From: Deltaproteobacteria bacterium
GTDB lineage: Bacteria; Myxococcota; Myxococcia; Myxococcales; 40CM-4-68-19
Direction: 5' to 3'
Length of the DNA stretch: 51,154 nt
Assembly: GCA_005879315.1 (NCBI GenBank)
Contig: VBLC01000066.1
Span: 1 to 51,154 of the forward strand
In this document: piece by piece, positions 24,043 to 41,113 of the stretch
Layout of the letters: every line of letters starts with the position of its first letter
How positions within the stretch are numbered: the first letter of the stretch is position 1
Notes under the pieces: generated by a model
Told to the model about the DNA's origin: nothing
Database searches by the model: none
Seen by the model: the letters and a program-made list of their open reading frames with translations, nothing else
Position numbers and translations under genes: made by a program

Positions 24043-25086
24043 GTGGTAACCCGGTCGACGATCTACCAAGTGGCAAGACGCTGCGGCGTGTCCACCGCCA
24101 CGGTCTCGCGGGTAATGCACGACGGCACCGGGTTCTCGCCGCCCACCCGCAAGCGCGTGCTCGCGGCAGCCGCCGCCATGGGCTGGGTTCCGAGTGGCCC
24201 GGCGCGCGGCCTCGCCTTCCGGAAGACCGGGATCGTCGGCCTGCTCTTCCCCGACCTGGCGTCCTTCAGCGAGTCCGAAGAGGAATCTCCTCTCTTCATC
24301 GACCAGGTGATCCGGGGCGCGGAGCGGGCCGCGGCCGCCGCCGGCGTCGCGGTGCTGATCGCGGCCACCCGCGGGGCCGGCCGGAAGCTGGCCCGCTCCG
24401 TCGTCGGGCAGGTCGATGGCTTGGTGGTTCTGGCTCGCAGCCTGCCGGTCAAGGATATCCAGATATTTTCGCGCAGCGTGCCGATCGTGGTGCTGGCGGA
24501 CCGATTGAACGGGTCCAGGCTGGACTACGTGGGGGCCGACAACCGCGGCGGCATGCGCGAGCTGACCGCGCACGTCCTGACGGTGCACAGGTTCACCCGC
24601 CTCGCCTTCGTCGGCGGCCCGGCGCGCTCCCCCGATTCCCAGGAGCGATTCGCCGGATTCCGCATGGCGATGCGAGCGGCCGGGCTTTCCGTTCCCGGCC
24701 GACCCGCAGCAGACGGCGGCTTCACCGAGGCTGGCGGCGCCCGGGCGATGCGCGCGCTGCTGGCCAGCGGGAAGCCGCCGCAGGCGGTCCTCTTCGGCAA
24801 CGACGAGATGGCGGTCGGCGGTCTCTCCGTCCTGCGCGCCGCCGGGGTGCGGGTCCCGTCCGGCATCGCGGTCACCGGTTTCGACGACATCGCTCTTTCG
24901 CGGCACGTGCAACCGTCGCTCACCACCGTCAAGCAGCCGATGCGCGACCTCGGCGGGCAGGCCGTGCGCGTTCTGCTCGCCCGGGTGGCCGAGCCGGCTT
25001 CCCGGCGCCAGTCGTTGGTGTTGCCCACGCAGTTGGTCGTGCGGCGCAGTTGCGGGTGCACTACCCGGCGCGGAATGGCGGCGTAG
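24043..25086 (+). CDS. LacI-family transcriptional repressor of the glucan operon
   Basis: 347 residues. The N-terminal helix-turn-helix (about residues 6-27, TIYQVARRCGVSTATVSRVM) is followed by a hinge and a periplasmic-binding-like effector domain with GLLFPD, FVGG, FGNDEMAVG and GFDDIALSRHVQPSLTTVKQ. GTG 24043 is the likely start, with AGGAG at 24026-24030 about twelve bases away. The protein is the first gene of the operon and lies directly behind two palindromic operators, so it most probably represses itself and everything downstream until a glucan-derived sugar binds. TonB receptor translation begins 49 bases after its stop. Confidence 0.94.
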   Translation: MVTRSTIYQVARRCGVSTATVSRVMHDGTGFSPPTRKRVLAAAAAMGWVPSGPARGLAFRKTGIVGLLFPDLASFSESEEESPLFIDQVIRGAERAAAAAGVAVLIAATRGAGRKLARSVVGQVDGLVVLARSLPVKDIQIFSRSVPIVVLADRLNGSRLDYVGADNRGGMRELTAHVLTVHRFTRLAFVGGPARSPDSQERFAGFRMAMRAAGLSVPGRPAADGGFTEAGGARAMRALLASGKPPQAVLFGNDEMAVGGLSVLRAAGVRVPSGIAVTGFDDIALSRHVQPSLTTVKQPMRDLGGQAVRVLLARVAEPASRRQSLVLPTQLVVRRSCGCTTRRGMAA

Positions 25087-25135
25087 CGCCCTCGAGATGT
25101 GAAGCTCAAACCTGTTGTTCCACTGGGAGGGAATC

Positions 25136-28132
25136 ATGGGATGCTTGCAGAAGTCCTGTCGCCACGCCGCAGCAGCGGCGCTGATGTTCTTGCTGGCCGG
25201 GACGGCACAGGCCCAGGTCAGCACCGCCACCATCCAGGGCCATGTCAGAAGCGGCGGGGACCCTGCGCCGGCCGGCTTGAGCGTCGTCGCCGTCAGCAAG
25301 GAAAGCGGATTCGAGTACAAGACCGCCACGCTGCAGGACGGCAGCTATACGATCACCGGCTTGCCGCCCGACGAATACGAGATCCGCATCACGGACCCGA
25401 ACGGCGTCGCCAAGAGCGAGCCCATCACACTGGCCGTGGGCGACACCGCGTCGGTCGACCTCGCTCTCACTCCATCGGAGCGCAAGACGGGGACCGAGGA
25501 GATCACGGTCGTCGGCACGCGACGGCGCAAGGCGGTGAAGAACTCGGAGGTCGGCACCAACGTCCCTCCAGTCCTGATCGAGGGTCTGCCGCAGACCACC
25601 CACAACTTCCTGGCCGCGGCCGACCTGGCGCCCGGCGTGGTCTTCGAGCAGGACCAGGCCACCGGCAGCACCAGCATCAAAGCCGGCGCGCAGAATCACG
25701 ACAACGTCAACGTGTTCATCGACGGCGTCAGCCAGAAGAACAACATCCTCCGCGGAGGCGTGGTCGGGCAGGACTCGAGCCGCGGCAACCCGTTCCCCCA
25801 GTCGGCGGTCAAGGAATTCAAGGTCATCACGCAGAACTACAAGGCCGAGTTCGACCAGGTGAGCAGCGCGGCCATCACCGCCGTCACCAAGTCGGGCACG
25901 AACGAAGTGCACGGCGACGTCTATTTCGACCGCGCCGAGACTGCCTGGCGATCCAAGTCGCCGCTGGAGATCCAGAGGGAACAGCAGGGGCAACTCCTCT
26001 TGCCCTCGAACAAGAACGAGTTTGGAGTCAGCCTGGGTGGCCCGATCCAGAAGGACGCCGTCAACTTCTTCCTCGCCTATGACGGCAAGACCATCGGCGA
26101 CTCCCGGCAGGTGATCCCGAGGAACCTGGACAAGCTCCCTGCCAACGCCGGGATCGTGCCTCAGCTCGCGAAGCAGGGCGGCTCCTACGTCGACAGCTTC
26201 AACGAGCACCTCATCTTCGGCAAGGTGAACGCAGAGCTCGACCACGAGAGGAGGCTGACGCTTTCGACGACGGTGCGGCTCGAGTCGGATCACATCCCCG
26301 AAGACCTGAACCTGAGCGCGCCCGGAAACGACAAGAACCGCACCAACAACGAGTTCAGGATCGATGCCTTCCACGAGTGGAATCTCGGCAACGAGCTGGT
26401 GTCCGAGACCAGGCTCGATTACCAGAATGCTTATTGGAAGCCGCAGTCGAACCTCAACGCGCCCGAGATCAGGTACAGGGTCTCCACGGCCTCTGGGGCG
26501 ACGGTCGACAGCGGCGGCGACGTGATCCTCACGGGCGGTTCGCCCGACAACCAGGTGCGCGGGCAGAGAGGTTTCACCCTCTCCCAGAGCCTGGCCTACG
26601 CGGGGCTCGCGCAACACGTCTTCAAGGGCGGAGCGAAGCTCGCCTACCTCAATTACGACCTCTCCGGAACCTCGCGCGGCGTCGACGTCGTCACTACCCT
26701 CATCGACCCCAGCACGGGAGTTCCTTTCTACGACCCCGCCACCGGGACGTGCACCGGAACCAACGTCATCAACGGCGGCAACAACAGCGACCAGTGCAAG
26801 ATCGACCGGGCACTCGCTCCGACGTCGGTGAGCATCAACAACGGCCAGATCGGCATCTTTGCGCAGGACGACTGGGATCTCACCAGCCAGCTCCAGCTCA
26901 ACCTGGGCGTGCGCTGGGATGTCGAGACCAACATGCTCAACAATGGCTACGTGACCCCCGCGGATCGGGTCGCGATCCTCAACGCACCCGACACCCGGAC
27001 CTTCACGGGTCAAACGGCGGCACCAGGTCAGACCTACGCGCAGTCGCTCGCCAAGGGCGGAATCAACATCGCGGACTACATCGCTGATGGTCATTCGCGA
27101 AAGACGTACCTGGGAGCGATCGCGCCGCGCCTGGGAGCCTCCTTTGACGTCCTGGGCGACAAGAACACCGTGGTATTCGGCGGCTATGGGCGCTCCTATG
27201 ACCGCATCATGGCCAACCACGCGCTCGACGAGATGCAAAAGAACCAGCAGCCCAAAGGTGAAATCTGGCTCATCCGGAACGACTTCAAGATGCCTTACAC
27301 CGATCAGTTCAGCGTGGGCGTTCGCCAGGCTGTGTGGCTGCTCAACCTCGAGGCCGTCGTCAGCGAACTGGACGGGAAGAACCAGTTCCAGTGGTTCAGC
27401 GGCAATCGCGACTTGAATGGCGGGTACGCGACGCAGAGTGTCGTCGACCCGCTCTGGGGCGGCCCGGCCGGATACGGGTCGCTGATCCTGGGCGACTTCA
27501 TCGGAGAGACCCGCACGCGCCAGCTGATGCTGAAAGTGGAGAAGCCCTACACGAGGCTCTCGGGGTGGACCGTGGCGGCCGCCTACACTTTCTCCGACGC
27601 GCAGACCAAGCATCGGGAGTGGAATGACGACATCTTCGATTGGACCTACGGCAGGACGGCCGCCGATCGGCCGTGGAATACCTCGCGCCTCGTCGACAAG
27701 CACCGCCTGGTCCTCGCGGCCTTGGCCGACAACCTGCTGCCGTGGGGCTTCGTACTCTCGAGCAAGTTCACCTACGGCAGCGGTATCCCGCGGCGTGTCG
27801 TAGGCTGTCCGTTCGTCGGCGCCAACCCGTGTGACATCGCGAACGGAGGTGCGGTGGCCCTGCTGGCGGATTCGCCGGCGTTCAAGCAGTTCGATCTGAG
27901 CTTGGCGAAGCGATTCGGCACCGGGCCCGGGGCGTTCGAGGTCCGTGCGGATGTCTTCAACATGTTCGACTGGAACAACGAAACCTATGACACCAACGCT
28001 TGGGGTGGCGTGGGCGTGGCTGCGGGAAAACCGGCCAACTCGCTTGGTCTGGACAACCTCGACCTCAACAAACCGATCGGGATTCGCGGACCGACGCGCA
28101 CCTTGAAGCTCGCAGCGAGTTATAGCTTCTAG
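25136..28132 (+). CDS. TonB-dependent receptor, Oar-like, for glucan oligosaccharides
   Basis: 998 residues, outer membrane. The start is ATG 25136, preceded by GGGAGG; a TTG 21 bases upstream is open but has no ribosome site. A signal peptide ends near residue 27 (GTAQA). Residues about 28-110 form a carboxypeptidase-regulatory-like beta domain (GHVRSGG to LPPDEYEIRI). A TonB-box-like EEITVVGT and a plug domain follow (VFIDGVSQKNN, AITAVTKSGTNEVHGDVYF), then a large barrel ending KLAASYSF with the terminal Phe. Position between the repressor and glycoside hydrolase genes points to carbohydrate import. No SusD partner is present. Confidence 0.93.
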   Translation: MGCLQKSCRHAAAAALMFLLAGTAQAQVSTATIQGHVRSGGDPAPAGLSVVAVSKESGFEYKTATLQDGSYTITGLPPDEYEIRITDPNGVAKSEPITLAVGDTASVDLALTPSERKTGTEEITVVGTRRRKAVKNSEVGTNVPPVLIEGLPQTTHNFLAAADLAPGVVFEQDQATGSTSIKAGAQNHDNVNVFIDGVSQKNNILRGGVVGQDSSRGNPFPQSAVKEFKVITQNYKAEFDQVSSAAITAVTKSGTNEVHGDVYFDRAETAWRSKSPLEIQREQQGQLLLPSNKNEFGVSLGGPIQKDAVNFFLAYDGKTIGDSRQVIPRNLDKLPANAGIVPQLAKQGGSYVDSFNEHLIFGKVNAELDHERRLTLSTTVRLESDHIPEDLNLSAPGNDKNRTNNEFRIDAFHEWNLGNELVSETRLDYQNAYWKPQSNLNAPEIRYRVSTASGATVDSGGDVILTGGSPDNQVRGQRGFTLSQSLAYAGLAQHVFKGGAKLAYLNYDLSGTSRGVDVVTTLIDPSTGVPFYDPATGTCTGTNVINGGNNSDQCKIDRALAPTSVSINNGQIGIFAQDDWDLTSQLQLNLGVRWDVETNMLNNGYVTPADRVAILNAPDTRTFTGQTAAPGQTYAQSLAKGGINIADYIADGHSRKTYLGAIAPRLGASFDVLGDKNTVVFGGYGRSYDRIMANHALDEMQKNQQPKGEIWLIRNDFKMPYTDQFSVGVRQAVWLLNLEAVVSELDGKNQFQWFSGNRDLNGGYATQSVVDPLWGGPAGYGSLILGDFIGETRTRQLMLKVEKPYTRLSGWTVAAAYTFSDAQTKHREWNDDIFDWTYGRTAADRPWNTSRLVDKHRLVLAALADNLLPWGFVLSSKFTYGSGIPRRVVGCPFVGANPCDIANGGAVALLADSPAFKQFDLSLAKRFGTGPGAFEVRADVFNMFDWNNETYDTNAWGGVGVAAGKPANSLGLDNLDLNKPIGIRGPTRTLKLAASYSF

Positions 28133-28148
28133 TCGACGCATCCAACCG

Positions 28149-28184
28149 CCCGCGCAGGTGCCCTCCTTCGGGCGCCTGCGCGGG
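28149..28184 (+). terminator. strong hairpin after the TonB receptor
   Basis: A 15-base-pair stem (28149-28163 with 28170-28184, one G-T wobble) and a six-base loop, TCCTTC, start 16 bases after the receptor stop. No T-run follows. It may be a leaky terminator or an RNA-stabilising element that sets receptor mRNA above the downstream genes, which otherwise lack their own promoter. The alternative GTG start for the next gene at 28184 would lie on its last base. Confidence 0.55.
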
Positions 28185-28201
28185 TGCACTCCCTCCAGCC
28201 C

Positions 28202-29671
28202 ATGACTCAGGGAAAAAGCGCACCGCGGTCGCCGCCACCTCCCCTCGGGCGCCGCGATCTGCTCGCGGCCTTTCTCGCGGTGCCGCTTTCAGCCTGCCGG
28301 AGGAACGGCGCCCCGGCGCCTGTGAATAATCCGCCCTTGGCCGCCGACGCCTTGCTCACCGATCTCGAGCGCCGCGCCTTCGACTTCTTCTGGGAGACCA
28401 CCGACCCCGCCACCGGTCTGACCTTGGACCGCTGGCCCGCGCCGTCCTTCTCCAGCATCGCGGCGGTGGGTTTCGCCCTCAGCGGCTACGTCGTGGGCGC
28501 CCAGCGGGGCTTCATCACCCGCGAACAGGCGCGGGCCCGCGTGCTCGACACGGTCCGCTTCTTCCACGACGCGCCCCAAGGCAGCGCTACGACGGGCGTC
28601 ACCGGCTACAAGGGCTTCTTCTACCATTTCCTCGACACCAAGACTGGCACTCGCTTCCGTGACTGCGAGCTGTCCACCATCGATACCACGCTGCTTCTCG
28701 CGGGCATGCTGCATTGCCAGGCATGGTTCGACGGGATCGACGCGGACGAGACGCTGATCCGGACGCTGGTGGACGACATCTACGGCCGCGCCGACTGGTC
28801 CTGGTTTCAAGTGCGCTCCCCATGGGTGGCCATGGGCTGGACTCCGGAGCAAGGTTTCTCCGGCTACGACTGGAAGGGCTACAACGAGGCCTCGATCCTC
28901 TACCTGCTCGCCATGGGTTCGCCCACACATGCGGTCGGCGCGGACGCCTGGGCCGCCTGGACGAGCACCTACGAGAATTTGCCGCATTCCGGTTGGGTGA
29001 CCGAGTACGGACAGACGTACTTGCGCTTTCCTCCATTGTTCGGCCATCAGTTCACGCAGTGCTGGGTGGACATGCGCGGCTTGACCGATGCGTACATGAA
29101 GAGCAAGGGCGTCGACTACTTCGAGAACTCGCGGCGCGCCACGTACGCGCAGCAGGGCTACGCGATCGCGAACCCCGAGGGCTGGGCCGGATACGGGCGC
29201 GACGTCTGGGGCGTCAGTGCCTGCGACGGTCCGGCCGACGTCATCCGATCCTTCAACGGCAAGCAGCGCCAGTTTCACGGCTACGCTGGCCGGGGCATGG
29301 GCGGACCCTCCACCTATGACGACGGCACCATCGCTCCCTACGGCGCTGGCTCGTCGGTGGTCTTCGCGCCGGAGATCGCTCTACCGGCGCTGGCCGCGAT
29401 GTATGAGCGCTACGGACGGGCCATCTACGGGCGCTACGGCTTCTATGCTTTCAACCAGAGCTTCAACTTCAGCGACGTTCAGCTCTCCAATGGCCGGCTG
29501 GTGCCGGGTCTGGGATGGGTCAATACGGATTTCCTGGGCATCGAGCTAGGGCCGCTCCTGGCGATGATCGCCAACTATCGCGGGGAGCTCGTCTGGAAGA
29601 GCATGCGCCAGCACCCCGCCATCAAGCGCGGCCTCTTGCGCGCAGGCTTCACCGGCGGATGGCTGGGGTGA
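28202..29671 (+). CDS. GH144-type endo-beta-1,2-glucanase-like lipoprotein
   Basis: 489 residues from ATG 28202 (an in-frame GTG at 28184 sits on the hairpin). The N-terminus has a twin-arginine pair (GRRDLLAAFLAVPLSAC) and a lipobox with Cys32, so it is exported, perhaps by Tat, and lipid-anchored. The body is the (alpha/alpha)6 'glycoamylase' domain (PF10091): FDFFWETTDPATGLTLDRW, FYHFLDTKTGTRF, STIDTTLLLAGML, GYNEASILYLLAMGSPTH and YGFYAFNQSFN. Characterised members of this group (GH144) cut beta-1,2-glucan internally. That fits the phosphorylase further down. Its last four bases overlap the binding-protein start (GTGA). Confidence 0.88.
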   Translation: MTQGKSAPRSPPPPLGRRDLLAAFLAVPLSACRRNGAPAPVNNPPLAADALLTDLERRAFDFFWETTDPATGLTLDRWPAPSFSSIAAVGFALSGYVVGAQRGFITREQARARVLDTVRFFHDAPQGSATTGVTGYKGFFYHFLDTKTGTRFRDCELSTIDTTLLLAGMLHCQAWFDGIDADETLIRTLVDDIYGRADWSWFQVRSPWVAMGWTPEQGFSGYDWKGYNEASILYLLAMGSPTHAVGADAWAAWTSTYENLPHSGWVTEYGQTYLRFPPLFGHQFTQCWVDMRGLTDAYMKSKGVDYFENSRRATYAQQGYAIANPEGWAGYGRDVWGVSACDGPADVIRSFNGKQRQFHGYAGRGMGGPSTYDDGTIAPYGAGSSVVFAPEIALPALAAMYERYGRAIYGRYGFYAFNQSFNFSDVQLSNGRLVPGLGWVNTDFLGIELGPLLAMIANYRGELVWKSMRQHPAIKRGLLRAGFTGGWLG

Positions 29672-30915
29672 GGGTCGTCGCGGCCGCCCTCTGTGCCGCA
29701 GCCTGCGCTCGCGACGATGCTCGCGTTCTCCACTTCTGGGCCATGGGCCGCGAGGGCGAAGTCGCGTCGGAATTGCTCGGGGCCTTCGAGCGCGAGAACC
29801 CGGGCCTGCGCGTTCGCGTCGAGCAGCTGCCCTTCACGGCAGCCCACGAGAAGCTGCTCACCGCGTACGCCGGCGACGCCACCCCGGACATCGCGCAGAT
29901 GGGCAACACCTGGCTCCCCGAATTCGTCGCCCTCGATGCGGTCGTGCCGCTCGACGATCGCCTACGCGCTTCGGCCCAGGTGGATCTCGCCGACTTCGAT
30001 CCGGGAATCGTGGCCACCAACGTCATCGAGGGGCGGCAGTACGGCGTGCCTTGGTACGTGGACACCCGCGTGCTTTTCTACCGCCGCGACCTGCTCGCCC
30101 AGGCCGGCTTCGACGCTCCGCCGCGCGACTGGGACGAATGGCTGCGCATGCAGGTCGCCGTCAAGCAGCGCGTGGGGCCCGACCGCTACGCGGTGCTCCT
30201 GCCGCTCAACGAGTACGAGCAGCTGGTGGCGCTGTGGCTACAGCAGGGCGAGCCGCTCTTGCGCGACGGCAACCGCTTCGGAAACTTCCGCAGCGCGGGC
30301 TTCGCGCACGCGCTGGAGTTCTATCTTTCGATGTTCGAGAGGCACCTCGCGCCGCCGGTCACCAACAACGACGTCGCCAACGTCTGGAACGAGTTCGCCC
30401 GCGGCTACTTCAGCTTCTTCATCACCGGCCCCTGGCAGATCGGTGAGCTCAAGCGGCGCCTGCCTCCCGAGCTGCAGTCGTCGTGGATGACGGCGCCCTT
30501 GCCCGGTCCGCACGGGCCCGGCGCGTCGAGCGCAGGCGGCTGCAGCCTCGCCATCTTCCGGCGCTCGACGCGGATGGATGCGGCCTGGAAGCTCGTCGAG
30601 TTCCTCTCGCGCCCGGCAGTGCAGCAGGAGTTCTACCGGCTCAGCGGCAACCTTCCGGCGCGGCGCTCGGCCTGGGCCGCCCCGGCGCTGGCGCACGATC
30701 CGTACGCCCGCGCCTTCCGCGATCAGCTCGACCGGGTCCGCCCGATCCCCCAGGTGCCGGAGTGGGAGCGCATTGCCACCGAGCTCCGGTTAGTGATGGA
30801 GATGGTGGTGCGCGGTGACATCCCCAAAGCCCGGGTGGCGCAGGAGATGGATGCGCGCGCCGACCTGATCCTCGAGAAACGCCGCTGGATGCTCGAGAGA
30901 AGGGCGCATCGATGA
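29668..30915 (+). CDS. ABC sugar-binding lipoprotein (extracellular family 1)
   Basis: About 415 residues from GTG 29668, which overlaps the GH144 stop; ATG 29659 is an alternative. A very short signal with a lipobox-like AAAC (Cys13) suggests a lipoprotein. The two-lobe binding-protein fold is clear: VLHFWAMGREGEVASELLGA, TPDIAQMGNTWLPEF, YGVPWYVDTRVLFYRRDLL, GYFSFFITGPWQIGELKR. Clustering with two permeases and phosphorylase predicts binding of sophoro-oligosaccharides. The end overlaps the first permease by ATGA. Confidence 0.92.
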   Translation: MRVVAAALCAAACARDDARVLHFWAMGREGEVASELLGAFERENPGLRVRVEQLPFTAAHEKLLTAYAGDATPDIAQMGNTWLPEFVALDAVVPLDDRLRASAQVDLADFDPGIVATNVIEGRQYGVPWYVDTRVLFYRRDLLAQAGFDAPPRDWDEWLRMQVAVKQRVGPDRYAVLLPLNEYEQLVALWLQQGEPLLRDGNRFGNFRSAGFAHALEFYLSMFERHLAPPVTNNDVANVWNEFARGYFSFFITGPWQIGELKRRLPPELQSSWMTAPLPGPHGPGASSAGGCSLAIFRRSTRMDAAWKLVEFLSRPAVQQEFYRLSGNLPARRSAWAAPALAHDPYARAFRDQLDRVRPIPQVPEWERIATELRLVMEMVVRGDIPKARVAQEMDARADLILEKRRWMLERRAHR

Positions 30916-31790
30916 AGCCGAGGCAAGCGGCCTGGCTGTTCGTGGCGCCCGCGCTCCTCGCGATCGCGGTGTTCTTCGTGGTGCCGGTGGCGGCAGCGCT
31001 GGTGATGAGCGGGACCGACTTCGACATCTACGCGCTGGCGGACCTGCGCAACGTGCGCTTCATCTGGCTCGACAACTACCTCCAGCTGCTCCAGAGGCCG
31101 CTGTTCTGGCAGGCGCTGCTCAACACGCTCTTCTTCGTGGTGGTCGGCGTGCCGCTGTCCGTTGCCGTCTCGCTGGTGGCGGCGCTCTTGCTCAACTCGC
31201 CCCTGGCGCTTTTCAAGGGCTTCCATCGCACCGCGCTCTTCGTGCCGGTGGTGGCCACGCTCGCGGCGGTGGCGGTGACGTGGCGCTTCCTGCTGCACAC
31301 CCGCTACGGGCTCTTGAACTACGGCCTTTCGTCGTTGGGCTTCTCGCCGATCGACTGGCTGGGCAATCCGCGCTGGGCGATGCCCGCGATCATGCTGCTC
31401 TCGGTGTGGAAGAACTTCGGCTACAACATGATCATCCTGCTCGCGGGCCTGCAGGCGATTCCGGGCGAGCAGTACGAAGCCGCGCGCCTCGACGGCGCCG
31501 GGCCGTTGGCCGTGCTCCGCCACATCACCATTCCGGCGCTCGGGCCGATGCTGCTCATGGTCAGCATCCTCACCATGGCGGCCCACTTCCAGCTCTTTGC
31601 CGAGCCCTACATGATGACCCAGGGCGGTCCGGCGCAGCGCACGGTCACCGTGCTCTATCTGATGTACGAAGAGGGCTTCAAATGGTGGAGCCTGGGCACC
31701 GGTTCGGCGGTGGCCTTCGTGCTCTTCCTCTTCATGTTCGGGTTCACCGTCCTGCAAGTAACGGTGTCGCGGCGCTGGGGGACGGCATGA
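30912..31790 (+). CDS. ABC sugar permease, MalF-type
   Basis: A 292-residue inner-membrane permease with six predicted TM segments, first at about residues 8-28 (WLFVAPALLAIAVFFVVPVA). The cytoplasmic EAA loop that contacts the ATPase reads YEAARLDGAGPLAVLRHITI. The start overlaps the binding protein and the stop overlaps the second permease, each by ATGA, so the three are made together. No ATPase gene is in the operon; a shared MsmX/UgpC-type ATPase encoded elsewhere is the usual solution. Confidence 0.94.
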   Translation: MKPRQAAWLFVAPALLAIAVFFVVPVAAALVMSGTDFDIYALADLRNVRFIWLDNYLQLLQRPLFWQALLNTLFFVVVGVPLSVAVSLVAALLLNSPLALFKGFHRTALFVPVVATLAAVAVTWRFLLHTRYGLLNYGLSSLGFSPIDWLGNPRWAMPAIMLLSVWKNFGYNMIILLAGLQAIPGEQYEAARLDGAGPLAVLRHITIPALGPMLLMVSILTMAAHFQLFAEPYMMTQGGPAQRTVTVLYLMYEEGFKWWSLGTGSAVAFVLFLFMFGFTVLQVTVSRRWGTA

Positions 31791-32608
31791 GGGCGCGCCT
31801 CGGCTTCCTCGGGGTCAACGCTGCGCTGGCCCTGCTGGCGGCGCTCACCCTCTTCCCGCTCGCCTGGATGATCTCTGCGTCCTTGATGGCTCCCGGCGAG
31901 GCGAACAACTATCCGCCGCCCCTGCTGCCGACCTCCGCCACACTGGAGAACTACCGGGTGCTGTTTGCCGAGCACGGCCTCGTCCGGCAGGTCTTCAACA
32001 GCCTGCTGATCTCGCTCTTCGCCACCTTGTTGTCGTTGGCCTTCAACCTGAGCGCGGGCTACGCGTTTGCCAAGCTGCGCTTCTGGGGGCGTGAGCGCAT
32101 CTTCCGCCTCCTGCTCGGCGCCCTGGTGATCCCGGCGCAGATCACCATGATGCCCCTCTTCTTCATGCTCAAGCGGATGGGGCTGGTGAACACCACGCCC
32201 GGCGTGCTGGTGCCCTGGCTCGCGAGCGTGGTCGGCATCTACCTGGTGCGGGAGTACGCGCGGTCGATCCCCGACGAGCTCCTCGAGGCGGCGCGCATGG
32301 ACGGCGCGGGAGAGGGGCGCATCTTCCTCAAGGTGGTGCTGCCGCTCTTGAAGCCCATCATGGTGACCCTGGCCGTGCTCGCCTTCATGCTCTCCTGGAA
32401 CGACTTCATGTGGCCCCTCGTCGTGCTGACCGATCGCGAGATGCAGACCTTGCCGGTCGCGCTCGCCACCTTGTCGCGCGAGCACGTGCAGGACGTCGAG
32501 CTGATGATGGCCGGCGCCGTCATCACGGTGCTGCCGGTGCTCCTCATCTTCTTCGCCCTGCAGCGGTACTACATGCAGGGCCTGCTGGCAGGGAGCGTGA
32601 AGGGATGA
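31787..32608 (+). CDS. ABC sugar permease, MalG-type
   Basis: 273 residues from ATG 31787 (ATGA overlap with MalF-type gene). TM1 is residues 8-30. The EAA loop is LEAARMDGAGEGRIFLKVVL. The end has the usual LQRYYMQGLLAGSVKG of MalG-type sugar permeases. It forms a heterodimeric pore with the preceding permease to take oligosaccharides into the cytoplasm, where the GH94 enzyme acts. Its stop overlaps the next gene by ATGA. Confidence 0.94.
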   Translation: MRARLGFLGVNAALALLAALTLFPLAWMISASLMAPGEANNYPPPLLPTSATLENYRVLFAEHGLVRQVFNSLLISLFATLLSLAFNLSAGYAFAKLRFWGRERIFRLLLGALVIPAQITMMPLFFMLKRMGLVNTTPGVLVPWLASVVGIYLVREYARSIPDELLEAARMDGAGEGRIFLKVVLPLLKPIMVTLAVLAFMLSWNDFMWPLVVLTDREMQTLPVALATLSREHVQDVELMMAGAVITVLPVLLIFFALQRYYMQGLLAGSVKG

Positions 32609-35600
32609 TCGCGGCGCCCCTGATGCTGGCAGTGCTCTTGGAAAGCGCGCCGGCCGCAGCCGGCGAGCGCGTGATCGCGGACGCTCGCGACGCTTCCGCA
32701 TGGAAGGCTCTCGGGTCCGAGCAGGTGGAGGCCGCGCTCCGGCGCGACGCCGATGGCAGCCTGTGCCTGGAGTACGACTTCCGCTCCGTCTCGGGCTATG
32801 CGGTCATGAGGCGTTCAATGCCCGTCCAATGGCCGCGCGCATTCGCTTTGCGGGTGCGGATCAAAGGGCGCGGCGGCGTGAACGACTTCCAGCTCAAGCT
32901 GGTGGACGCGAGCGGCGACAATGTCTGGTGGGTAAACCGGCCGGGCTATGTCACGCCGCGGGCACTGACCGATGTCACCTTCAAGGAGAGACACTTCAGC
33001 TTCGCCTGGGGACCCACCGCCGACAAGGCGCTGGCGCGCACCGAGACCCTGGAGCTCGCGGTGGCGGCGGGGCGCGACCGCGGCAAGGGCGCGCTGTGCA
33101 TCGCGGAGGTGGGGCTCAAGGAGCGCGAGCCCGATCCAGCCGTCTGGCCGGAGCCTCTCGCACACACGCGCGGTCGCACGCTCGAGCTCGATCTGCTCCG
33201 GCTGCGCGAGCTCAACGGGCTGGTGCTGCAGTGGCCCGTGCCAGTGCGGCGGGTGAACTACGACGTGCTGGCGTCGCCGGATGCGCGACGGTGGACGGTG
33301 CTGCGCCGCGTGCGCGGCAGCTCGGGCGGCTTCGACGCGCTCTACCTCCCGGAGAGCGAGGCGCGCCACTTGAAGATTCGCGCGCTGGATGCGGCGGCGC
33401 CTTTGCGCGTCGACCTGCGCGACAGCAAGACGTGGCCCGACTTCAACGCCGTCCTGTCCGAGCTCGCACGTCACGCGCCGCGCGGCCACGTCCCCCGAGC
33501 GTTCCTCGGCGAGCAGAACTACTGGGCGCTGGTGGGAGTTGCCGGGGGCGGTGAGCGCTCGGGGCTGCTGAGCGAGGATGGCGCGCTGGAGCTCGGGCGA
33601 GGCGGCTTCAGCGCGGAGCCGGCCGTCCTGGCCGGGGGGCAGCTCGTGGGTTGGGCCGACGTGCAGATCGTCCATTCGCTGCGCGAAGGACATCTGCCCA
33701 TGCCGGAAGTGCACTGGCGGCACGGCTTGTTCGCCCTCGACATCGCGGCAGCAGCCGAGGGGCGGCCTTCAGCGCCGCAGATCCTGGCGCGGTACGCGCT
33801 GACCAACACCTCCGGCTCGGTGCGCGCCTTCACACTGCTCCTGGCCGTGCGCCCCTGGCAGGTGAACCCACCGCAGCAGTTCCTCAACACGCCGGGCGGC
33901 GCGAGTCGTATCGACCGGATGCGGTGGCGGGCGCCGCGGCTGACAGTGAACGACGGCAAGGAGCTGACCTTCGCCGAGGCGCCAGGTCGCGTGACCGCCC
34001 TGCCCTTTGCAGGCGGCATCGACCTGCGCCCGCTGCGCGACGCCCAGGCCCTGCACGATCTCGCGGATGAGCAGGGCCACGCCTCGGCGCTGCTTCAGTG
34101 GGAGCTGATGCTGCAGCCGGGCGAGACGCGCGTGCTCCGCTGGAGCGCGCCGCTCCGTGCCGATCCCGGGTCCGCTGCTGTGCAGCCGATCGACGAGCGC
34201 ATGGACCAGGTGGCCGCAGACTGGCGAGCGCGCCTCGGCAAGATGGAGCTGACCTTGCCTGCGTCTTCGCGGCAGGTGGTGGACACGCTGCGGACGGCGC
34301 ACGCGTACATCCTGATCTCGCGGGACCGCGCCGCGCTCGAACCGGGTACGCGCTCGTATGCGCGATTCTGGATTCGCGACGGCGCGATGATGGCCGCGGG
34401 CCTCTTGCGCCTGGGCGAGCTCGACGCTGCGCGCGACTGCGTGGACTGGTTCGCCGGATTCGTCTTTGCCTCGGGCAAGGTGCCGTGCTGCGTGGATGCG
34501 CGCGGGGCAGACCCCGTGGTCGAGAACGACAGCCACGGCGAGTACCTCTACGCGGTGGCCGAGGTGTGGCGGCACTCGAGGGACAAGGCCTTCTTGGCCC
34601 GACACTGGGAGGTCGTGCAGCGGGTCGTCGCCTGGCTCGAGGGCTTGCGCCAGAGCACGCGCACCGCAGCGTTCACGGCGGGGAACCCGGCGAGCCTCCG
34701 CGGCCTTTTGCCTCCTTCCATCAGCCACGAGGGCTACTCGGACAAGCCCGCCTTCTCCTATTGGGACGACTTCTGGGCGCTGCGCGGCTACAAGGACGCG
34801 GTCGTCATCGCCCAGGGCCTGGGCCAGACCGCGCGGGCGACGCAGTGGGCGCAGTGGCGCGACGAGTTCCAGGCCGAGCTCGCGCAGTCGATCGAGGCCT
34901 CCGCCGCGCGCTTCGGCATGGACGCCATCGCCGGCGCCGCTGACCGCGGAGACTTCGACCCGACCTCGACGTCGGTGGCGCTCGATCCCGCGCAGGCGCG
35001 CGTCTCACCCCAAATCTTGAAATCCACCTTCGAGCACTACTGGCAGGAGGCCCGGCAGCGCGCTGAGGGAACGCGCCCGTGGAAGGACTACACGCCCTAC
35101 GAGCTGCGCAATGTGGGGGTGCTGGTGCGGATGGGTCAGCCAAGTCGCGCACACGAACTTCTCAAATTCTTCATGCATGACCGGCGGCCGGAGGGCTGGA
35201 ATCAGTGGGCCGAGGTCGTGCTGCGAAATCCCCGCGAGCCGGCGTTCCTCGGCGACATGCCGCATGCCTGGGTCGCCTCGGACTACCTGCGCTCGGTGCT
35301 CGACATGTTCGCCTACCAGCGGGAGGAGGACGACGCCTTGGTGCTAGGCGCGGGTCTGAGCGACGAGTGGATCGCTTCCGGTGTCGCCGTGAAGAGCATG
35401 TCGACGGCGCAGGGTGCGCTCAGCTACGCGCTCACGCCCTCGGGAAGCGGCATCCGTCTCGAGTTGGCCGGCGGGCTCTTGCCGCCTCGAGGCGGAGTGC
35501 GCTTCGCCTGGCCGCTGGCCGGTCCGTTGCCGAGGGCGCGTCACGACGGCGCCGAGCTCCCGTGGACCGGCCGCGAGCTGGTCCTTCCCAGAGGACCCGC

Positions 35601-35640
35601 GACCGTGCAGTTGGTCCATGAGCAAGGCCAACATGACTGA
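32605..35640 (+). CDS. uncharacterised exported 1,011-residue protein, probable (alpha/alpha)6 glycoside hydrolase
   Basis: It starts at ATG 32605 (ATGA overlap) with a signal peptide of about 20 residues (LMLAVLLESAPAAAG). Residues about 22-175 look like a beta-sandwich carbohydrate-binding domain (FALRVRIKGRGGVNDFQLKL). Residues about 185-280 resemble a discoidin/F5-8C domain (VRRVNYDVLASPDARRW). After a central beta region (about 290-545), residues about 550-920 form a helical domain with six-hairpin-glycosidase signatures: YARFWIRDGAMMAAG (Asp592), ENDSHGEYLYAVAE (Glu640, Asp642, Glu646), SYWDDFWALRGY (Asp721, Asp722) and DMPHAWVASDY (Asp884). A beta tail ends it. I cannot assign a GH family. 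Placed between transporter and phosphorylase, a role in trimming or debranching the glucan in the periplasm or at the surface is inferred. Confidence 0.75.
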   Translation: MIAAPLMLAVLLESAPAAAGERVIADARDASAWKALGSEQVEAALRRDADGSLCLEYDFRSVSGYAVMRRSMPVQWPRAFALRVRIKGRGGVNDFQLKLVDASGDNVWWVNRPGYVTPRALTDVTFKERHFSFAWGPTADKALARTETLELAVAAGRDRGKGALCIAEVGLKEREPDPAVWPEPLAHTRGRTLELDLLRLRELNGLVLQWPVPVRRVNYDVLASPDARRWTVLRRVRGSSGGFDALYLPESEARHLKIRALDAAAPLRVDLRDSKTWPDFNAVLSELARHAPRGHVPRAFLGEQNYWALVGVAGGGERSGLLSEDGALELGRGGFSAEPAVLAGGQLVGWADVQIVHSLREGHLPMPEVHWRHGLFALDIAAAAEGRPSAPQILARYALTNTSGSVRAFTLLLAVRPWQVNPPQQFLNTPGGASRIDRMRWRAPRLTVNDGKELTFAEAPGRVTALPFAGGIDLRPLRDAQALHDLADEQGHASALLQWELMLQPGETRVLRWSAPLRADPGSAAVQPIDERMDQVAADWRARLGKMELTLPASSRQVVDTLRTAHAYILISRDRAALEPGTRSYARFWIRDGAMMAAGLLRLGELDAARDCVDWFAGFVFASGKVPCCVDARGADPVVENDSHGEYLYAVAEVWRHSRDKAFLARHWEVVQRVVAWLEGLRQSTRTAAFTAGNPASLRGLLPPSISHEGYSDKPAFSYWDDFWALRGYKDAVVIAQGLGQTARATQWAQWRDEFQAELAQSIEASAARFGMDAIAGAADRGDFDPTSTSVALDPAQARVSPQILKSTFEHYWQEARQRAEGTRPWKDYTPYELRNVGVLVRMGQPSRAHELLKFFMHDRRPEGWNQWAEVVLRNPREPAFLGDMPHAWVASDYLRSVLDMFAYQREEDDALVLGAGLSDEWIASGVAVKSMSTAQGALSYALTPSGSGIRLELAGGLLPPRGGVRFAWPLAGPLPRARHDGAELPWTGRELVLPRGPATVQLVHEQGQHD

Positions 35641-38600
35641 CATCCTCGGAGCTGAGCCGAGGCCCGTGCCCTCCGAGCCGCTGCGCCTCACCACTGCCGC
35701 CGGTCTGAGCCTGGAGCTCAACCGCGACGGCGGCGCACGACGCATCGAATTCGGCGGCGTCTCGGTGAATCTCTTCATGGGCAACGGCATGGAGCCCTCG
35801 CCTGCGAACGTGTGGCTGCGGCTGCACCGCGGCGCGAGGGTCGAGGCGGTGCCGCTGCTCGGGCCGCAGTCGCCTCTGCGGGGGCAAGCTTCGGCGAATG
35901 CCTTTGCAGCCTCGGGCGAATGGCAGGGCTTGCACATCGAGCTGCGCCTCGCCCTCGCCGAGGACCGGCCCACCTGGTGCTGGCAAGTGCGACTCGGGAA
36001 CCGCTCGCAGGAAGAGCTCCGCACGGATCTGATGTTCGGCCAGGACCTCGCGCTGGCGAGCTACGCCGTCGTCCGCCTGAACGAGTACTACGTCAGCCAC
36101 TACATCGACCTGAGCGGATGGGAGCACGCGCGCTGCGGCTGGGTGGTCGCCGCTCGGCAGAACCTCGCCCAGGCCGGCCGGCATCCCTGGGCCGTCATCG
36201 GCTCGCTCCGTCGCGGCGTCTCCTTCGCCACCGACGGCCTGCAACTCCATGGCCTCGCGCAGCGCTTGGGCGGCCTCCCAAGCGGGGTGTCGAACGGGTT
36301 GCCGGGACAGCGGCTGCAGCACGAGCACGCCCTCGCCGCTGTCCAGGACCAGGTCGTAGCGCTGGCGCCCGGCGCCCGCTCGTCGGGCGGCTTCTTCGTG
36401 GCGCTTCAGGCGGATCACCCGCTGGCCACCTCGGCGGAAGACCTCTCTGCCGTGGATGCCGCGCTCTCGTGGGCCGCCTCGCTCGAGCTGCCGCCCTCGA
36501 GCCCGGCCGCAGAGCACGAGCACTCCGGCGGCGGCGGCACGCTGTTCGCGACCGCCCCCATGCTCGAGTGCCGCGACCTGGAGGAGGCGGAGCTGCCGCG
36601 GTTCTTCGGCGCCGAGTGGCGCCACGAGGAGCGCGAGGGCGGCGAGCTGCTCTCGTTCTTCTGCGGCGAGAACGCCCATGTGGTGCTGCGCGCCAAGGAG
36701 GCGCGGACCCAGCGCCCGCACGGCCAATTATTGAGAACGGGGCAGGCCCGCGTGCCGGAGGACTCGTCATTGACCTCCACGGTCTGGATGGCGGGCGTCT
36801 TCCACTCCATGGTCACGCAGGGCCACGTCAGCATCAACCGGTTCCTCTCCGCCCAGCACAGTTGGTTGGGACTCTTCCGCTCGCATGGCCTGCGTTTGTT
36901 CGTGGAAGTTGACGGCTGCTGGCAGCTCCTCGGCGTGCCCTCGGCATTCGAGATGCGGCTCGACTCCTGCCGCTGGATCTACCGGCACGCCCGCGGCGTC
37001 ATCGAGGTGGTCAGCGGGGCGGAGTCCGGGAGGAATACCCTGAGCCTGCGGGCGCGCGTCCTCGATGGCCCGAAAGTGGCGTGGCTCTCGACGCTGCACC
37101 TGGCGCTGGGTGGCGACGACGGCAACTCCGCAACGTCTGTCGCCTGGCGCGTGCAAGGCAAGGAGGTCTTCGTCGGAGTTCCTGAGGGCGGTGAGCTGCA
37201 CGCGCGGTTCCCGGGCGGGGGCTTCGCCGTCGTGCTGCTCGAGGACGTGGCTCCCCTCGTCGTGCGGGGCGACGGGCGCCTGTTCACGGATGGCCGGTCA
37301 CGAGGGTTGCCCTTCCTTTGCGCGGAGAGCGAGGCTAGCAGTTCCTTTGGCCTGGAACTGTCCGGGAGGCTTCTGCCCGGCGCGCCATCTTCGCCCTTGC
37401 CGATCCTGCTGCCTTCGCTGCGAGCACCGGGGGAGACCGGCGCTGCGCGCGAGGTGCACCGCCTTGCGGAGATGCTCCCCTGGCTGCTGAACAATGCGCT
37501 GGTGCATTACCTCTCGCCCCGCGGGCTCGAGCAGTATTCCGGCGGAGGCTGGGGCACGCGCGACGTGTGCCAGGGTCCGCTGGAGATGTTGCTGGCGCTC
37601 GACTGCCCGGAGGCCGCCCGCGACCTGGTGCTTCGGGTGTTCGCCGCGCAGAACGCCGACGGCGACTGGCCGCAGTGGTTCCAGTTCATCGAGCGCGAGC
37701 GCGATCTGCGGGCGAGCGACTCGCACGGAGACATCGTCTTTTGGCCGCTGCTGGCATTGGCGCGCACCGTGCTGGGCACGGGCGATCATTCCCTGTTCGA
37801 CGCGCAGGTGCCCTTCCATGGCGGGCCCGGCGCCACCGAGGCAAAGGCGACGCTGCTGCAGCACGTGGAGCGCGCCCTCCAGGTCATCGCGCGACGCCGC
37901 GTGGCCGGCACCGCGCTGGCGGCGTACGGTCACGGCGACTGGAACGACTCCCTCCAGCCCGCCGACCCGTCCATGCGCGAGAGGCTGTGCAGCGCCTGGA
38001 CCGTGACGCTGCACCATCAGACCCTCGCCGCCATCGCCAAGGCCCTGCGGTTCGCAGGCCACCCGGATCGAGCCGCCATCCTGGAGGCCGAGACCCTCCG
38101 AATCCGGCACGACTTCCATCGACACCTGATGGCCGACGGTGTCATCGCTGGCTATGGAGTCTTCTCGGCGGGCGCCGCGGATGAGTTGCTGTTTCACCCG
38201 CGCGACCGCCAGACGGGCGTGCGCTACAGCCTGCTGCCCATGATGCACGCCATCCTCGAGGGCCTTTGCACGCCCGAAGAGGCCGCGGCGCATCTCAAGA
38301 TCATGCGCGAGTACCTCTGGGGCCCGGACGGAGCACGCCTGTTCGACCGCCCCCTGCCTTACCGCGGCGGCCCGGAGCGGCTTTTCCAGCGTGCGGAGAG
38401 CAGCGCCTTCTTCGGGCGCGAGATCGGCATCATGTACACGCATGCGCACCTGCGCTACGCGCAGATGCAAGCCCACGTCGGCGATGCACGGGGCCTGCTG
38501 CGCTCCTTGGCGCTGGCGCACCCGGTGCAGTTGCGCGAGCGATTGCCTCAGGCCAGCCTTCGCCAGTCGAACTGCTACTTCTCCAGCTCGGATGCTGCAT

Positions 38601-39016
38601 TTCGCGACCGGTACCAGGCGCAGAAGGAGTACGCGCAGGTGGCCGCAGGGAGGGTCGCGCTGGACGGCGGCTGGCGCGTGTATTCGAGCGGGCCGGGAAT
38701 CGCGCTCTCGCTCCTCGTGACCGGTCTGTTGGGAGTCCGCCGCGAGGGAGCCACTCTGGTCATCGACCCGGTGATCGCACCGGAGCTGAGCGGGCTGCGC
38801 GCGGAGCTGTCGGTGCTGGGGCGCCGGGTGCAAGTGGAAGTTCAGGTCGACAGACAGGGCTACTCGCCGCGGCTCATCACCCTCAACGGACGGCCGTTGG
38901 CGTTCACCCGCGCCGACAACCCATACCGCGCCGGCGGCGCGGCGATTCCGCTGGACGCCTGGACCGCGCATCGGCGCGCGGACGCGCCCGACCTCCTCCG
39001 CGTCGAGTTGGGCTAA
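35633..39016 (+). CDS. GH94 phosphorylase, probable 1,2-beta-oligoglucan phosphorylase
   Basis: 1,127 residues from ATG 35633, overlapping the previous stop by eight bases, with AAGG five bases upstream; ATG 35618 would add five residues. No signal peptide, so cytoplasmic. The C-terminal half is the GH94 catalytic barrel: GGWGTRDVCQGPLEMLLALD, DGDWPQWFQFIERERDLRAS, HGDIVFWPLLA, and AYGHGDWNDSLQPAD (DWND at 769-772), which carries the catalytic acid. Length near 1,100 and the HGDWNDSLQPAD form match 1,2-beta-oligoglucan phosphorylase rather than cellobiose or chitobiose phosphorylases (about 800). It would split sophoro-oligosaccharides with phosphate into glucose 1-phosphate. Substrate specificity is inferred from size, motif and the GH144 neighbour. 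Confidence 0.83.
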   Translation: MTDILGAEPRPVPSEPLRLTTAAGLSLELNRDGGARRIEFGGVSVNLFMGNGMEPSPANVWLRLHRGARVEAVPLLGPQSPLRGQASANAFAASGEWQGLHIELRLALAEDRPTWCWQVRLGNRSQEELRTDLMFGQDLALASYAVVRLNEYYVSHYIDLSGWEHARCGWVVAARQNLAQAGRHPWAVIGSLRRGVSFATDGLQLHGLAQRLGGLPSGVSNGLPGQRLQHEHALAAVQDQVVALAPGARSSGGFFVALQADHPLATSAEDLSAVDAALSWAASLELPPSSPAAEHEHSGGGGTLFATAPMLECRDLEEAELPRFFGAEWRHEEREGGELLSFFCGENAHVVLRAKEARTQRPHGQLLRTGQARVPEDSSLTSTVWMAGVFHSMVTQGHVSINRFLSAQHSWLGLFRSHGLRLFVEVDGCWQLLGVPSAFEMRLDSCRWIYRHARGVIEVVSGAESGRNTLSLRARVLDGPKVAWLSTLHLALGGDDGNSATSVAWRVQGKEVFVGVPEGGELHARFPGGGFAVVLLEDVAPLVVRGDGRLFTDGRSRGLPFLCAESEASSSFGLELSGRLLPGAPSSPLPILLPSLRAPGETGAAREVHRLAEMLPWLLNNALVHYLSPRGLEQYSGGGWGTRDVCQGPLEMLLALDCPEAARDLVLRVFAAQNADGDWPQWFQFIERERDLRASDSHGDIVFWPLLALARTVLGTGDHSLFDAQVPFHGGPGATEAKATLLQHVERALQVIARRRVAGTALAAYGHGDWNDSLQPADPSMRERLCSAWTVTLHHQTLAAIAKALRFAGHPDRAAILEAETLRIRHDFHRHLMADGVIAGYGVFSAGAADELLFHPRDRQTGVRYSLLPMMHAILEGLCTPEEAAAHLKIMREYLWGPDGARLFDRPLPYRGGPERLFQRAESSAFFGREIGIMYTHAHLRYAQMQAHVGDARGLLRSLALAHPVQLRERLPQASLRQSNCYFSSSDAAFRDRYQAQKEYAQVAAGRVALDGGWRVYSSGPGIALSLLVTGLLGVRREGATLVIDPVIAPELSGLRAELSVLGRRVQVEVQVDRQGYSPRLITLNGRPLAFTRADNPYRAGGAAIPLDAWTAHRRADAPDLLRVELG

Positions 39017-39029
39017 AGAGAGAGCCGAG

Positions 39030-40379
39030 ATGAACGATGATTACAACTTCCCCCAGCATTTCCTCTGGGGCGCGGCGACCGCGGCGTATCAGATCGAAGG
39101 CTCGCCGCTGAGCGACGGAGCCGGTCCGAGCATCTGGCACCGCTTCGCGCACACGCCCGGGAGGATGCGCAACGGCGACACGGGGGACGTGGCCTGCGAC
39201 CACTACCGGCGCTTCCGGGAGGACATCGCGCTGATGCGCGAGCTCGGGCTCAAGTCCTATCGGTTCAGCATCGCCTGGTCGCGCGTGTTCCCTGAGGGCA
39301 CCGGGGCGGTCAACGCAAAGGGGCTCGACTTCTACGAGCGCCTGGTGGACGAACTGCTCGCCCAGGGGATCGAGCCAATGGTCACGCTCTACCATTGGGA
39401 CCTCCCCGCTGCGCTGGACGATCGCGGTGGATGGCTCAACCCAGAGGTCGCGCGCTGGTTCGCCGAGTACTCGCGCGCGGTGTTCCGCCGGCTCGACGGT
39501 CGCGTCAAGCTGTGGGTCACCTTGAACGAGCCGTGGGTGGTGTCCGACGGCGGCTACCTGCACGGCACGCTGGCGCCGGGCCATCGCAGTCCCTTCGAGG
39601 CGCCGCGCGCTTCGCACAACTTGATGCTGGCGCATGCGGCGTCGGTCGCCGCCTACCGAGCCGAGGGACGGCACCGGATCGGCCTGGTCGTCAGCCTGGA
39701 GCCCAAGTATCCAGCGTCAGCGAGCGCGGAGGACTTGGCGGCGACGCTGCGCGCCGAAGCGTACATGAACCGTCAGTACCTCGACGCCGCGCTCCTCGGC
39801 CGGTACCCGGAGGAGCTCGCGGAGATCTTCGGCGAAGCCTGGCCCGACTGGAAGCCTGAGGAGGTGGCGTCCCTCCGGGTGCCCATCGATTTCCTGGGCG
39901 TCAATTACTACACGCGCAGCGTCACCCGCGCAGATGCGACGAGCTGGCCGCTGCGCGCCTCGGCCGTGCGCCAGGTCAACGCGACGCATACCGAGATGTC
40001 CTGGGAGGTCTTCGCCCAGGGGCTTCAGGACGCGCTGCTCTGGGTGAAGAAGCGCTACGGCGACGTACCGCTCTACGTCACCGAGAACGGCGCTGCGTTC
40101 TACGACCCGCCCCAGGCGCCGGCCGATGGCGTGCAAGACCCATTGCGCGTGGGCTATCTGCGCCAGCACTTGCGCGCCGTGTACGGCGCCATCGCGGCAG
40201 GTTGCGACGTGCGCGGCTACTTCGTCTGGTCCTTGCTGGACAATCTCGAATGGGCACTGGGCTACTCGATGCGCTTCGGTATCGTGCACGTCGACTTCGA
40301 ATCGCAGCGGCGAACGCCGAAGGCAAGCGCGCGCTTCTACTCCAAGGTGATCGCGACGAATGGACGTGGGCTCGGCTGA
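39030..40379 (+). CDS. GH1 beta-glucosidase
   Basis: 449 residues, normal length, no signal peptide, so cytoplasmic. N-terminal signature FLWGAATAAYQIEGSPLSDG. The acid/base is Glu167 in TLNEPW and the nucleophile is Glu352 in YVTENGAAF. It follows the GH94 gene by 13 bases. In this setting it most likely hydrolyses sophorose or other short beta-linked products that the phosphorylase leaves. GH1 enzymes are broad, so activity on other beta-glucosides is possible. Confidence 0.95.
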   Translation: MNDDYNFPQHFLWGAATAAYQIEGSPLSDGAGPSIWHRFAHTPGRMRNGDTGDVACDHYRRFREDIALMRELGLKSYRFSIAWSRVFPEGTGAVNAKGLDFYERLVDELLAQGIEPMVTLYHWDLPAALDDRGGWLNPEVARWFAEYSRAVFRRLDGRVKLWVTLNEPWVVSDGGYLHGTLAPGHRSPFEAPRASHNLMLAHAASVAAYRAEGRHRIGLVVSLEPKYPASASAEDLAATLRAEAYMNRQYLDAALLGRYPEELAEIFGEAWPDWKPEEVASLRVPIDFLGVNYYTRSVTRADATSWPLRASAVRQVNATHTEMSWEVFAQGLQDALLWVKKRYGDVPLYVTENGAAFYDPPQAPADGVQDPLRVGYLRQHLRAVYGAIAAGCDVRGYFVWSLLDNLEWALGYSMRFGIVHVDFESQRRTPKASARFYSKVIATNGRGLG

Positions 40380-40423: not shown

Positions 40424-41113
40424 GTGAAGCACTTGGCCTTCTTCGTCTGCGCCGCACTAGGCTGCGTCCCTTTGACGAAGTCTCCGGAACCAGACTGGGC
40501 CGCCCTCGGCGTATACCGAACGGAGAATGCCCGGGTCGGCCTTCCCACCTCCGCGGAGAAGAGGGTGGTGTTCTTCGGGGATTCCATCACCGAGGCCTGG
40601 GTCTCCAAGGCTCCCGCTTTCTTCGAGGGCCACCAATACCTCGCACGCGGGATCGGCGGGCAGACCACCGCACAGATGCTGGTGCGCTTCCGCCAGGACG
40701 TGATCGCGCTGCGGCCACAGGCCGCGCTGATCCTGGCCGGGACCAACGACATCGCCGAAAACACGGGGCCCTACCGCCAGGAGGATACCCTCGGCCACCT
40801 GCAATCCATGGTCGAGCTGGCCATGGCCCATGGGATCCACGTGGTCCTCGCCTCGATCCTGCCGGCCCGCAACTACCGCTGGAGCCCGGGGCGCGAACCC
40901 GCTGGGAAGATCATCGCGCTCAACACCTTGCTCCGAGCCTATGCCGAGAAGAACGGGCTCGTTTATCTCGACTACCACGCCGCCATGGCCGATACCGACG
41001 GCGGCCTGAAAGCCAGTCTGTCGGAGGACGGCGTCCATCCCAATCGGGCCGGCTACGATCTGATGGGCCCGCTCGCCGAGCATGCCCTGCAGAAAGCGCT
41101 GGCTGCGAAGTAG
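40424..41113 (+). CDS. SGNH/GDSL-family lipase or carbohydrate esterase
   Basis: 229 residues from GTG 40424, with a GAGG about eight bases before it. The N-terminus is a lipoprotein-like signal (FVCAALGC, Cys14). All four SGNH blocks are present: FFGDSITEAW (Ser), GIGGQTTAQM (Gly), LAGTNDI (Asn) and EDGVHPNRAGY (Asp and His). This form resembles acetyl-esterase-like members that act on decorated sugars or polysaccharides. It lies 44 bases behind the GH1 gene in the same direction. It may be the last gene of the glucan operon and remove acyl substituents, but could be independent. Confidence 0.9.
   Translation: MKHLAFFVCAALGCVPLTKSPEPDWAALGVYRTENARVGLPTSAEKRVVFFGDSITEAWVSKAPAFFEGHQYLARGIGGQTTAQMLVRFRQDVIALRPQAALILAGTNDIAENTGPYRQEDTLGHLQSMVELAMAHGIHVVLASILPARNYRWSPGREPAGKIIALNTLLRAYAEKNGLVYLDYHAAMADTDGGLKASLSEDGVHPNRAGYDLMGPLAEHALQKALAAK

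Follow-up and report, generated by a model that had tools for sequence, protein, structure and literature searches.

Beta-1,2-glucans, the majority of them cyclic, serve as factors of symbiosis and virulence, and enzymes new for these glucans have become the founders of several recent glycoside hydrolase (GH) families. One of the enzymes already described, the GH144 protein XCC2207, is a proven endolytic beta-1,2-glucanase (PMC12102758). Alpha-1,6-cyclised beta-1,2-glucans occur in Xanthomonas, Ralstonia and Cereibacter (PMC11842490), and in Xanthomonas they are made by XccOpgD (PMC11228985). The GH15 enzymes, which include alpha-1,6 specialists, carry their catalytic acid in the loop between helices 5 and 6 and their base in the loop between helices 11 and 12, and bind O4/O6 of the sugar at subsite -1 through a conserved Asp (PMC12446779). 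Here we analysed a stretch of 51,154 nucleotides from a Deltaproteobacteria bacterium (contig VBLC01000066.1, hereafter the window), in which a beta-1,2-glucan operon encodes an exported protein, P0001, that has no named family. We propose that P0001 is a new GH15-like hydrolase serving beta-1,2-glucan use, a reading of class and mechanism that excludes the alpha-1,6 step discussed below and to which we give a probability of about 0.68.

Re-reading of the open reading frames bore out the gene as originally predicted:

32605..35640, + strand: P0001 gene, 1011 aa, unnamed glycoside-hydrolase-like family (open reading frame call, homologue profile search, structure model)

Its start overlaps the stop of the preceding permease gene in one ATGA (32605-32608), and the ATG of the following GH94 gene, at 35618, precedes the P0001 stop (35638-35640), so that the coupling and the overlap proposed earlier were both found. 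The absence of a named family also held. No Pfam family scored over its cut-off for P0001 (F5/8C at 0.011 and GDE_C at 0.059 were the sole matches), the NCBIfam matches were of GH15 type only and all sub-threshold, PHROGs gave no match, and the single sequence produced only chance matches against PDB sequences. The NCBIfam GH15-type models (oligosaccharide amylase, archaeal trehalase) matched 7 of 9 family members below threshold, the best at 7.2e-8, while homologues exceeded the Pfam cut-off for F5/8C only and are labelled 'discoidin domain-containing protein' in public plasmid records. No paper on the protein was found in the open-access literature, where, of the family names GH195-GH200, GH195 alone has been applied to an enzyme (in a paper on diatom mannan). 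P0001 is a member of a real, conserved family, unnamed as judged by Pfam, NCBIfam, PHROGs and that literature, and this is a new family inside a known superfamily.

P0001 was modelled by AlphaFold2 with 49 natural members. The full-length model had a predicted local distance difference test score (pLDDT) of 92.8 and a predicted template modelling score (pTM) of 0.92, and the core-only AlphaFold2 model had a pLDDT of 94.2 and a pTM of 0.93. The protein is organised as follows:

32605..32664, + strand: probable Sec signal peptide, aa 1-20 (MIAAPLMLAVLLESAPAAAG, read by eye)
32668..33129, + strand: N-terminal beta-sandwich (jelly roll), aa 22-175 (model strands 22-173; CBM11/CBM4_9 weakly matched in homologues)
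33157..33429, + strand: F5/8C (CBM32-like) domain, aa 185-275 (family profile against CBM32-type chains, E 1.4e-9)
33442..34152, + strand: beta-supersandwich as in GH15/GH94, aa 280-516 (models and Foldseek)
34189..34236, + strand: linker helix from supersandwich to barrel, aa 529-544 (model)
34261..35310, + strand: (alpha/alpha)6 barrel of 12 helices, aa 553-902 (model)
35311..35616, + strand: C-terminal beta domain, aa 903-1004 (model)

The N-terminal beta-sandwich anticipated by the original prediction is thus present in the model, and the CBM11/CBM4_9-type Pfam matches to it, in homologues L044 and L054, are sub-threshold. The anticipated discoidin domain belongs to CBM32 (F5/8C) by the family profile and by homologues that exceed the Pfam cut-off, P0001 alone remaining below it. 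The helical (alpha/alpha)6-type domain appeared as a 12-helix barrel, but the beta-supersandwich had gone unnamed.

In Foldseek searches of the PDB, the GH15 dextran dextrinase (9ju0) was the top match of both models (E 1e-17 for the full length, 9e-16 for the core), followed by GH94 phosphorylases (1.8e-15 for the core) and, behind these, by GH116, GH78, GH95 and glucodextranase; the TM-scores of about 0.6 denote a shared architecture, not a shared family. Cyclic glucan synthase entries, with about 800 aligned columns, presumably match via their GH94 part. Profile comparison by hhalign placed GH15 first (4.3e-4) and GH94 second (2.3e-3), and revealed no similarity to GH144 (E 0.16 to 0.29). 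None of the 50 best Foldseek matches of the full-length or core model was a GH144 or GH162 entry, and GH162, GH189 and GH192-194 were absent from the fold and PDB sequence matches, no profile comparison having been made for them. Glycogen-debranching profiles (E 0.015-0.028) and the GH65 profile (E 0.026-0.041, built from 2 sequences) were rejected as nearest kin, both being weaker than GH15, and GH116 sequences were too few for a profile. Of the families compared by both fold and profile, GH15 is nearest and GH94 second, and no relation to GH144 was detected.

As in GH15, helices connect the supersandwich to the (alpha/alpha)6 barrel in the models and Foldseek matches. However, P0001 has no match to PF00723 (one homologue reached 0.091, below the cut-off), and of the two catalytic Glu of the helix 5-6 and 11-12 loops only E870 fits, the candidate acid being Asp721. 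GH15 membership therefore fails, because there is no sequence match and Asp stands in place of Glu, although P0001 may well work like GH15. No GH94 Pfam domains were found in P0001.

Residue conservation was counted over 94 family members from two clades. The hhalign alignment pairs R591-D592 with the R-D of GH15, W720-D721 with its W-E acid motif and E870 with its base Glu, and in the model D592 and D721 stand at the beginning of helices 2 and 6, respectively, and E870 is part of the helix 11-12 loop:

34378..34380, + strand: D592, motif YARxWIRDG, corresponding to the GH15 Asp that contacts O4/O6 of the subsite -1 glucose (conserved in 92/94; hhalign to GH15)
34765..34767, + strand: D721, motif SYWDDFW, candidate general acid at the start of helix 6 (Asp in 93/94; aligned to the GH15 W-E acid)
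35212..35214, + strand: E870, motif WNQWAEVV, candidate general base, or nucleophile if retaining, in the loop from helix 11 to helix 12 (93/94; aligned to the GH15 base Glu)

No member with a residue at the D721 column departs from Asp. Among the acidic motifs listed by the original prediction, D592, E640, D642, D721 and D884 are nearly always kept, but D722 is D or N (N in 16 of the 94 members), E646 lies outside the invariant or nearly invariant columns, and the conserved E870 had been missed. In a likely scheme, D721 would donate the proton and E870 would activate the water in a single, inverting displacement, while D592 would hold the subsite -1 glucose by its O4/O6. A Glu conserved where GH15 has its base suggests that P0001 is a hydrolase and not a GH94-like phosphorylase, as E870 would speak against phosphate-dependent cleavage. 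P0001 would act in the periplasm, alongside the GH144 endo-beta-1,2-glucanase, on glucan that enters via the TonB receptor.

A profile search over species-representative genomes gave at least 578 stretches matching the P0001 family, and 80 loci were kept. The hosts are Burkholderiales, Xanthomonadales, Caulobacterales, Sphingomonadales, metagenome-assembled genomes (MAGs) of Deltaproteobacteria/Polyangia and a Holophagales MAG. At the 65 loci whose upstream flank exceeds 8.5 kb, the neighbours were GH144 (63), a TonB receptor (63), a LacI-type regulator (60), an ABC importer (58), GH1 (35) and 1,2-beta-oligoglucan phosphorylase (SOGP; 14). With GH144 at 63 of 65 loci and the gene order kept in Pseudomonadota, Deltaproteobacteria/Myxococcota MAGs and one Holophagales MAG, the claim that P0001 is fixed inside a beta-1,2-glucan operon was upheld across distant phyla; sphingomonad loci are reduced to LacI, TonB receptor, GH144 and the P0001 homologue. 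Of 250 genomes of Xanthomonadales (the order of Luteimonas), 61 have the P0001 family, 84 have GH144 and 61 have both (Fisher 2e-39); in the window's own phylum, Myxococcota (195 genomes), the corresponding counts are 7, 8 and 6 (Fisher 2.7e-9). These p-values overstate the evidence because the tests ignore relatedness, a weakness of which the spread over distant phyla is free. Pairwise identities in the P0001 family correlated with those of GH144 at r 0.90 and with those of the TonB receptor at r 0.69, without species-tree correction. As to whether the protein is missing from other GH144 loci, a question raised with the original prediction, carriers nearly always have GH144, but GH144 occurs without the P0001 family in 23 of the 250 Xanthomonadales genomes.

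Some loci depart from this picture. That of an Ideonella MAG (L085) has the operon, including SOGP, but no GH144 match. The plasmid copy of X. sacchari R1 (L015:14902-17967) is split over two reading frames and has no gene listed, reflecting either a disrupted gene or an error in the sequence, and a related genome (L008, G040:C125:68666-68815) holds a remnant of the P0001 gene with in-frame stops. A second, shorter clade (L054:15524-18406, L056:15455-18388, L017:14476-17349, L169-L177) shows about 35% identity, has no N-terminal jelly roll and is mostly orphan, without kept neighbours; on a Methylosinus plasmid it adjoins SOGP and a GH15. The neighbourhood scan found no conserved partner for this clade in Xanthomonadales, and it therefore gives no functional hint. 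Loci L142-L145 (L144 being on contig C118 of the window's own genome) encode weak GDE_C-type proteins, a separate unassigned (alpha/alpha)6 group.

With regard to the bond that is cut, GH144 plus GH1, GH3 or GH94 was found nearby at 44 of 59 loci. Since GH144, SOGP, GH1 and GH3 already cover beta-1,2 linkages, the target of P0001 should, by exclusion, be another bond; fold and profiles also favour GH15, then GH94, over GH144, so that P0001 is more likely to cleave a different linkage than to be one more beta-1,2-glucanase. It would probably be the missing enzyme for the odd linkage, other than beta-1,2, in such glucans. Our tentative prediction is that P0001 would cut the alpha-1,6 bond closing the alpha-1,6-cyclised beta-1,2-glucans known from Xanthomonas, Ralstonia and Cereibacter. 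Slightly more tentative is the proposal of a new GH family that linearises these glucans (CbG16alpha and relatives), as a counterpart of the GH186 cyclising enzyme. Alternatively, P0001 could itself be exo-acting on beta-1,2 bonds, complementing the endo-acting GH144 by taking glucose or sophorose off the ends of sophoro-oligosaccharides. We regard this as possible but doubtful: GH94, the second nearest fold, is active on beta-glucosides, GH144 enzymes of the XcSGL type cut endolytically and are believed incapable of exolytic glucose release (PMC12102758), and no other beta-glucosidase or phosphorylase was seen within about 10 kb at 14 of the 59 loci; yet GH1, GH3, SOGP or another GH94 is present at most loci, profile comparison puts GH15 nearer than GH94, and a relation to GH144 is not detectable. 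The coverage of beta-1,2 bonds by neighbouring enzymes would equally suit an enzyme that strips side glucose linked beta-1,6, or branches of another sort, from periplasmic glucans of the E. coli type, such branches being known (PMC11842490), but the GH15 relatives are alpha-specific (PMC12446779) and there is no specific pointer to beta-1,6, so we consider this unlikely.

Equally improbable is a retaining transglycosylase resembling dextran dextrinase within GH15. That enzyme is the best structural match and has an extra N-terminal domain that shares in its retaining geometry (PMC12446779), and P0001 likewise has extra N-terminal domains; nevertheless, the catabolic operon favours hydrolysis, and the geometries of inverting and retaining GH15 enzymes differ by 1.2 to 1.6 Angstrom (PMC12446779), which cannot be read from sequence. 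The two binding-type domains might even indicate a binding or structural protein devoid of catalysis, but the barrel acids, including both candidate catalytic residues, are kept across the 94 members and two clades, which makes this very improbable. Several points nonetheless weigh against our main reading of P0001. The profile comparisons were pairwise and their E-values are weak, P0001 has Asp as candidate acid whereas GH15 has Glu, and dextran dextrinase illustrates that the same pair of residues also allows retention in place of inversion (PMC12446779). The fold leaves alpha versus beta unsettled, because GH15, GH94 and GH116 share it and the latter two cut beta bonds. The P0001 family is missing from 23 of the 84 GH144-positive Xanthomonadales, and an OpgG/OpgD gene (PF04349 family member) occurs in only 6 of 39 sampled carriers, so that in the other 33 such glucans are not made by that route and the host does not fix the natural substrate. 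Most carriers would therefore scavenge the glucan of others, and recycling of the host's own osmoregulated periplasmic glucans was rejected on the same count. The original prediction of a new glucan-active enzyme is partly supported, by the GH144-tied operon and the conserved acid and base candidates.

The neighbouring genes of the window are:

24043..25086, + strand: LacI-type regulator (library scan of window proteins)
25115..28132, + strand: TonB-dependent receptor (library scan of window proteins)
28184..29671, + strand: GH144 endo-beta-1,2-glucanase, orthologue of XCC2207, PDB 8xul (PF10091 1.4e-72; 8xul 1.8e-159)
29665..30915, + strand: sugar-binding protein of the ABC importer, start approximate (3uor 5.4e-146; Lin1841 1.1e-70)
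30912..31790, + strand: ABC permease 1 (library scan of window proteins)
31787..32608, + strand: ABC permease 2, ATGA overlap with the P0001 gene (library scan; ATGA read in the sequence)
35618..39016, + strand: GH94 1,2-beta-oligoglucan phosphorylase, SOGP (SOGP Pfam domains; 5h3z 1e-160)
39030..40379, + strand: GH1 beta-glucosidase (PF00232 4.7e-159)
40424..41113, + strand: GDSL lipase/esterase, operon membership uncertain (library scan of window proteins)

The XCC2207 orthologue, the protein resembling a sophoro-oligosaccharide binder and the SOGP (matching 5h3z, the Lachnoclostridium enzyme) identify this as a beta-1,2-glucan operon. The best solved match of the binding protein is Xac-MalE of X. 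citri (3uor), and it also matches Lin1841, a sophoro-oligosaccharide binder. The ligand of Xac-MalE is listed as unknown in one paper; the operon data suggest a new reading of the Xanthomonas 'maltose/trehalose' ('MalEFG') importer, which, judging from sequence, is probably a sophoro-oligosaccharide importer.

An unassigned GH144 partner in hundreds of species, including Xanthomonas with its characterised XCC2207, turns the full degradation of cyclic and mixed-linkage beta-1,2-glucans into a testable question; if the alpha-1,6 proposal is true, a linearising family travels with GH144 in soil, plant and water bacteria. Compared with known systems, P0001 shares with GH15 (dextran dextrinase 9ju0, glucodextranase 1ug9) the supersandwich, linker helices and 12-helix barrel, as well as the three loops that house the Asp and the candidate acid and base, but differs in its Asp as candidate acid, its extra jelly roll and CBM32-like domains and its tie to beta-1,2-glucan operons. 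The supersandwich-barrel architecture is also that of GH94 (cellobiose phosphorylase 8ho7, SOGP 5h3z), whose proton donor is an Asp, as is the candidate acid of P0001; unlike GH94, P0001 has the conserved E870 at the GH15 base position, is exported and lacks a GH94 Pfam match. GH144 of clan GH-S (XCC2207, 8xul), its operon partner, has an (alpha/alpha)6 barrel as well, but the GH144 enzymes are single-domain barrels (PMC12102758). Finally, the GH186 enzyme OpgD (XccOpgD) makes the glucan proposed as the substrate of P0001 and, unlike P0001, is biosynthetic.

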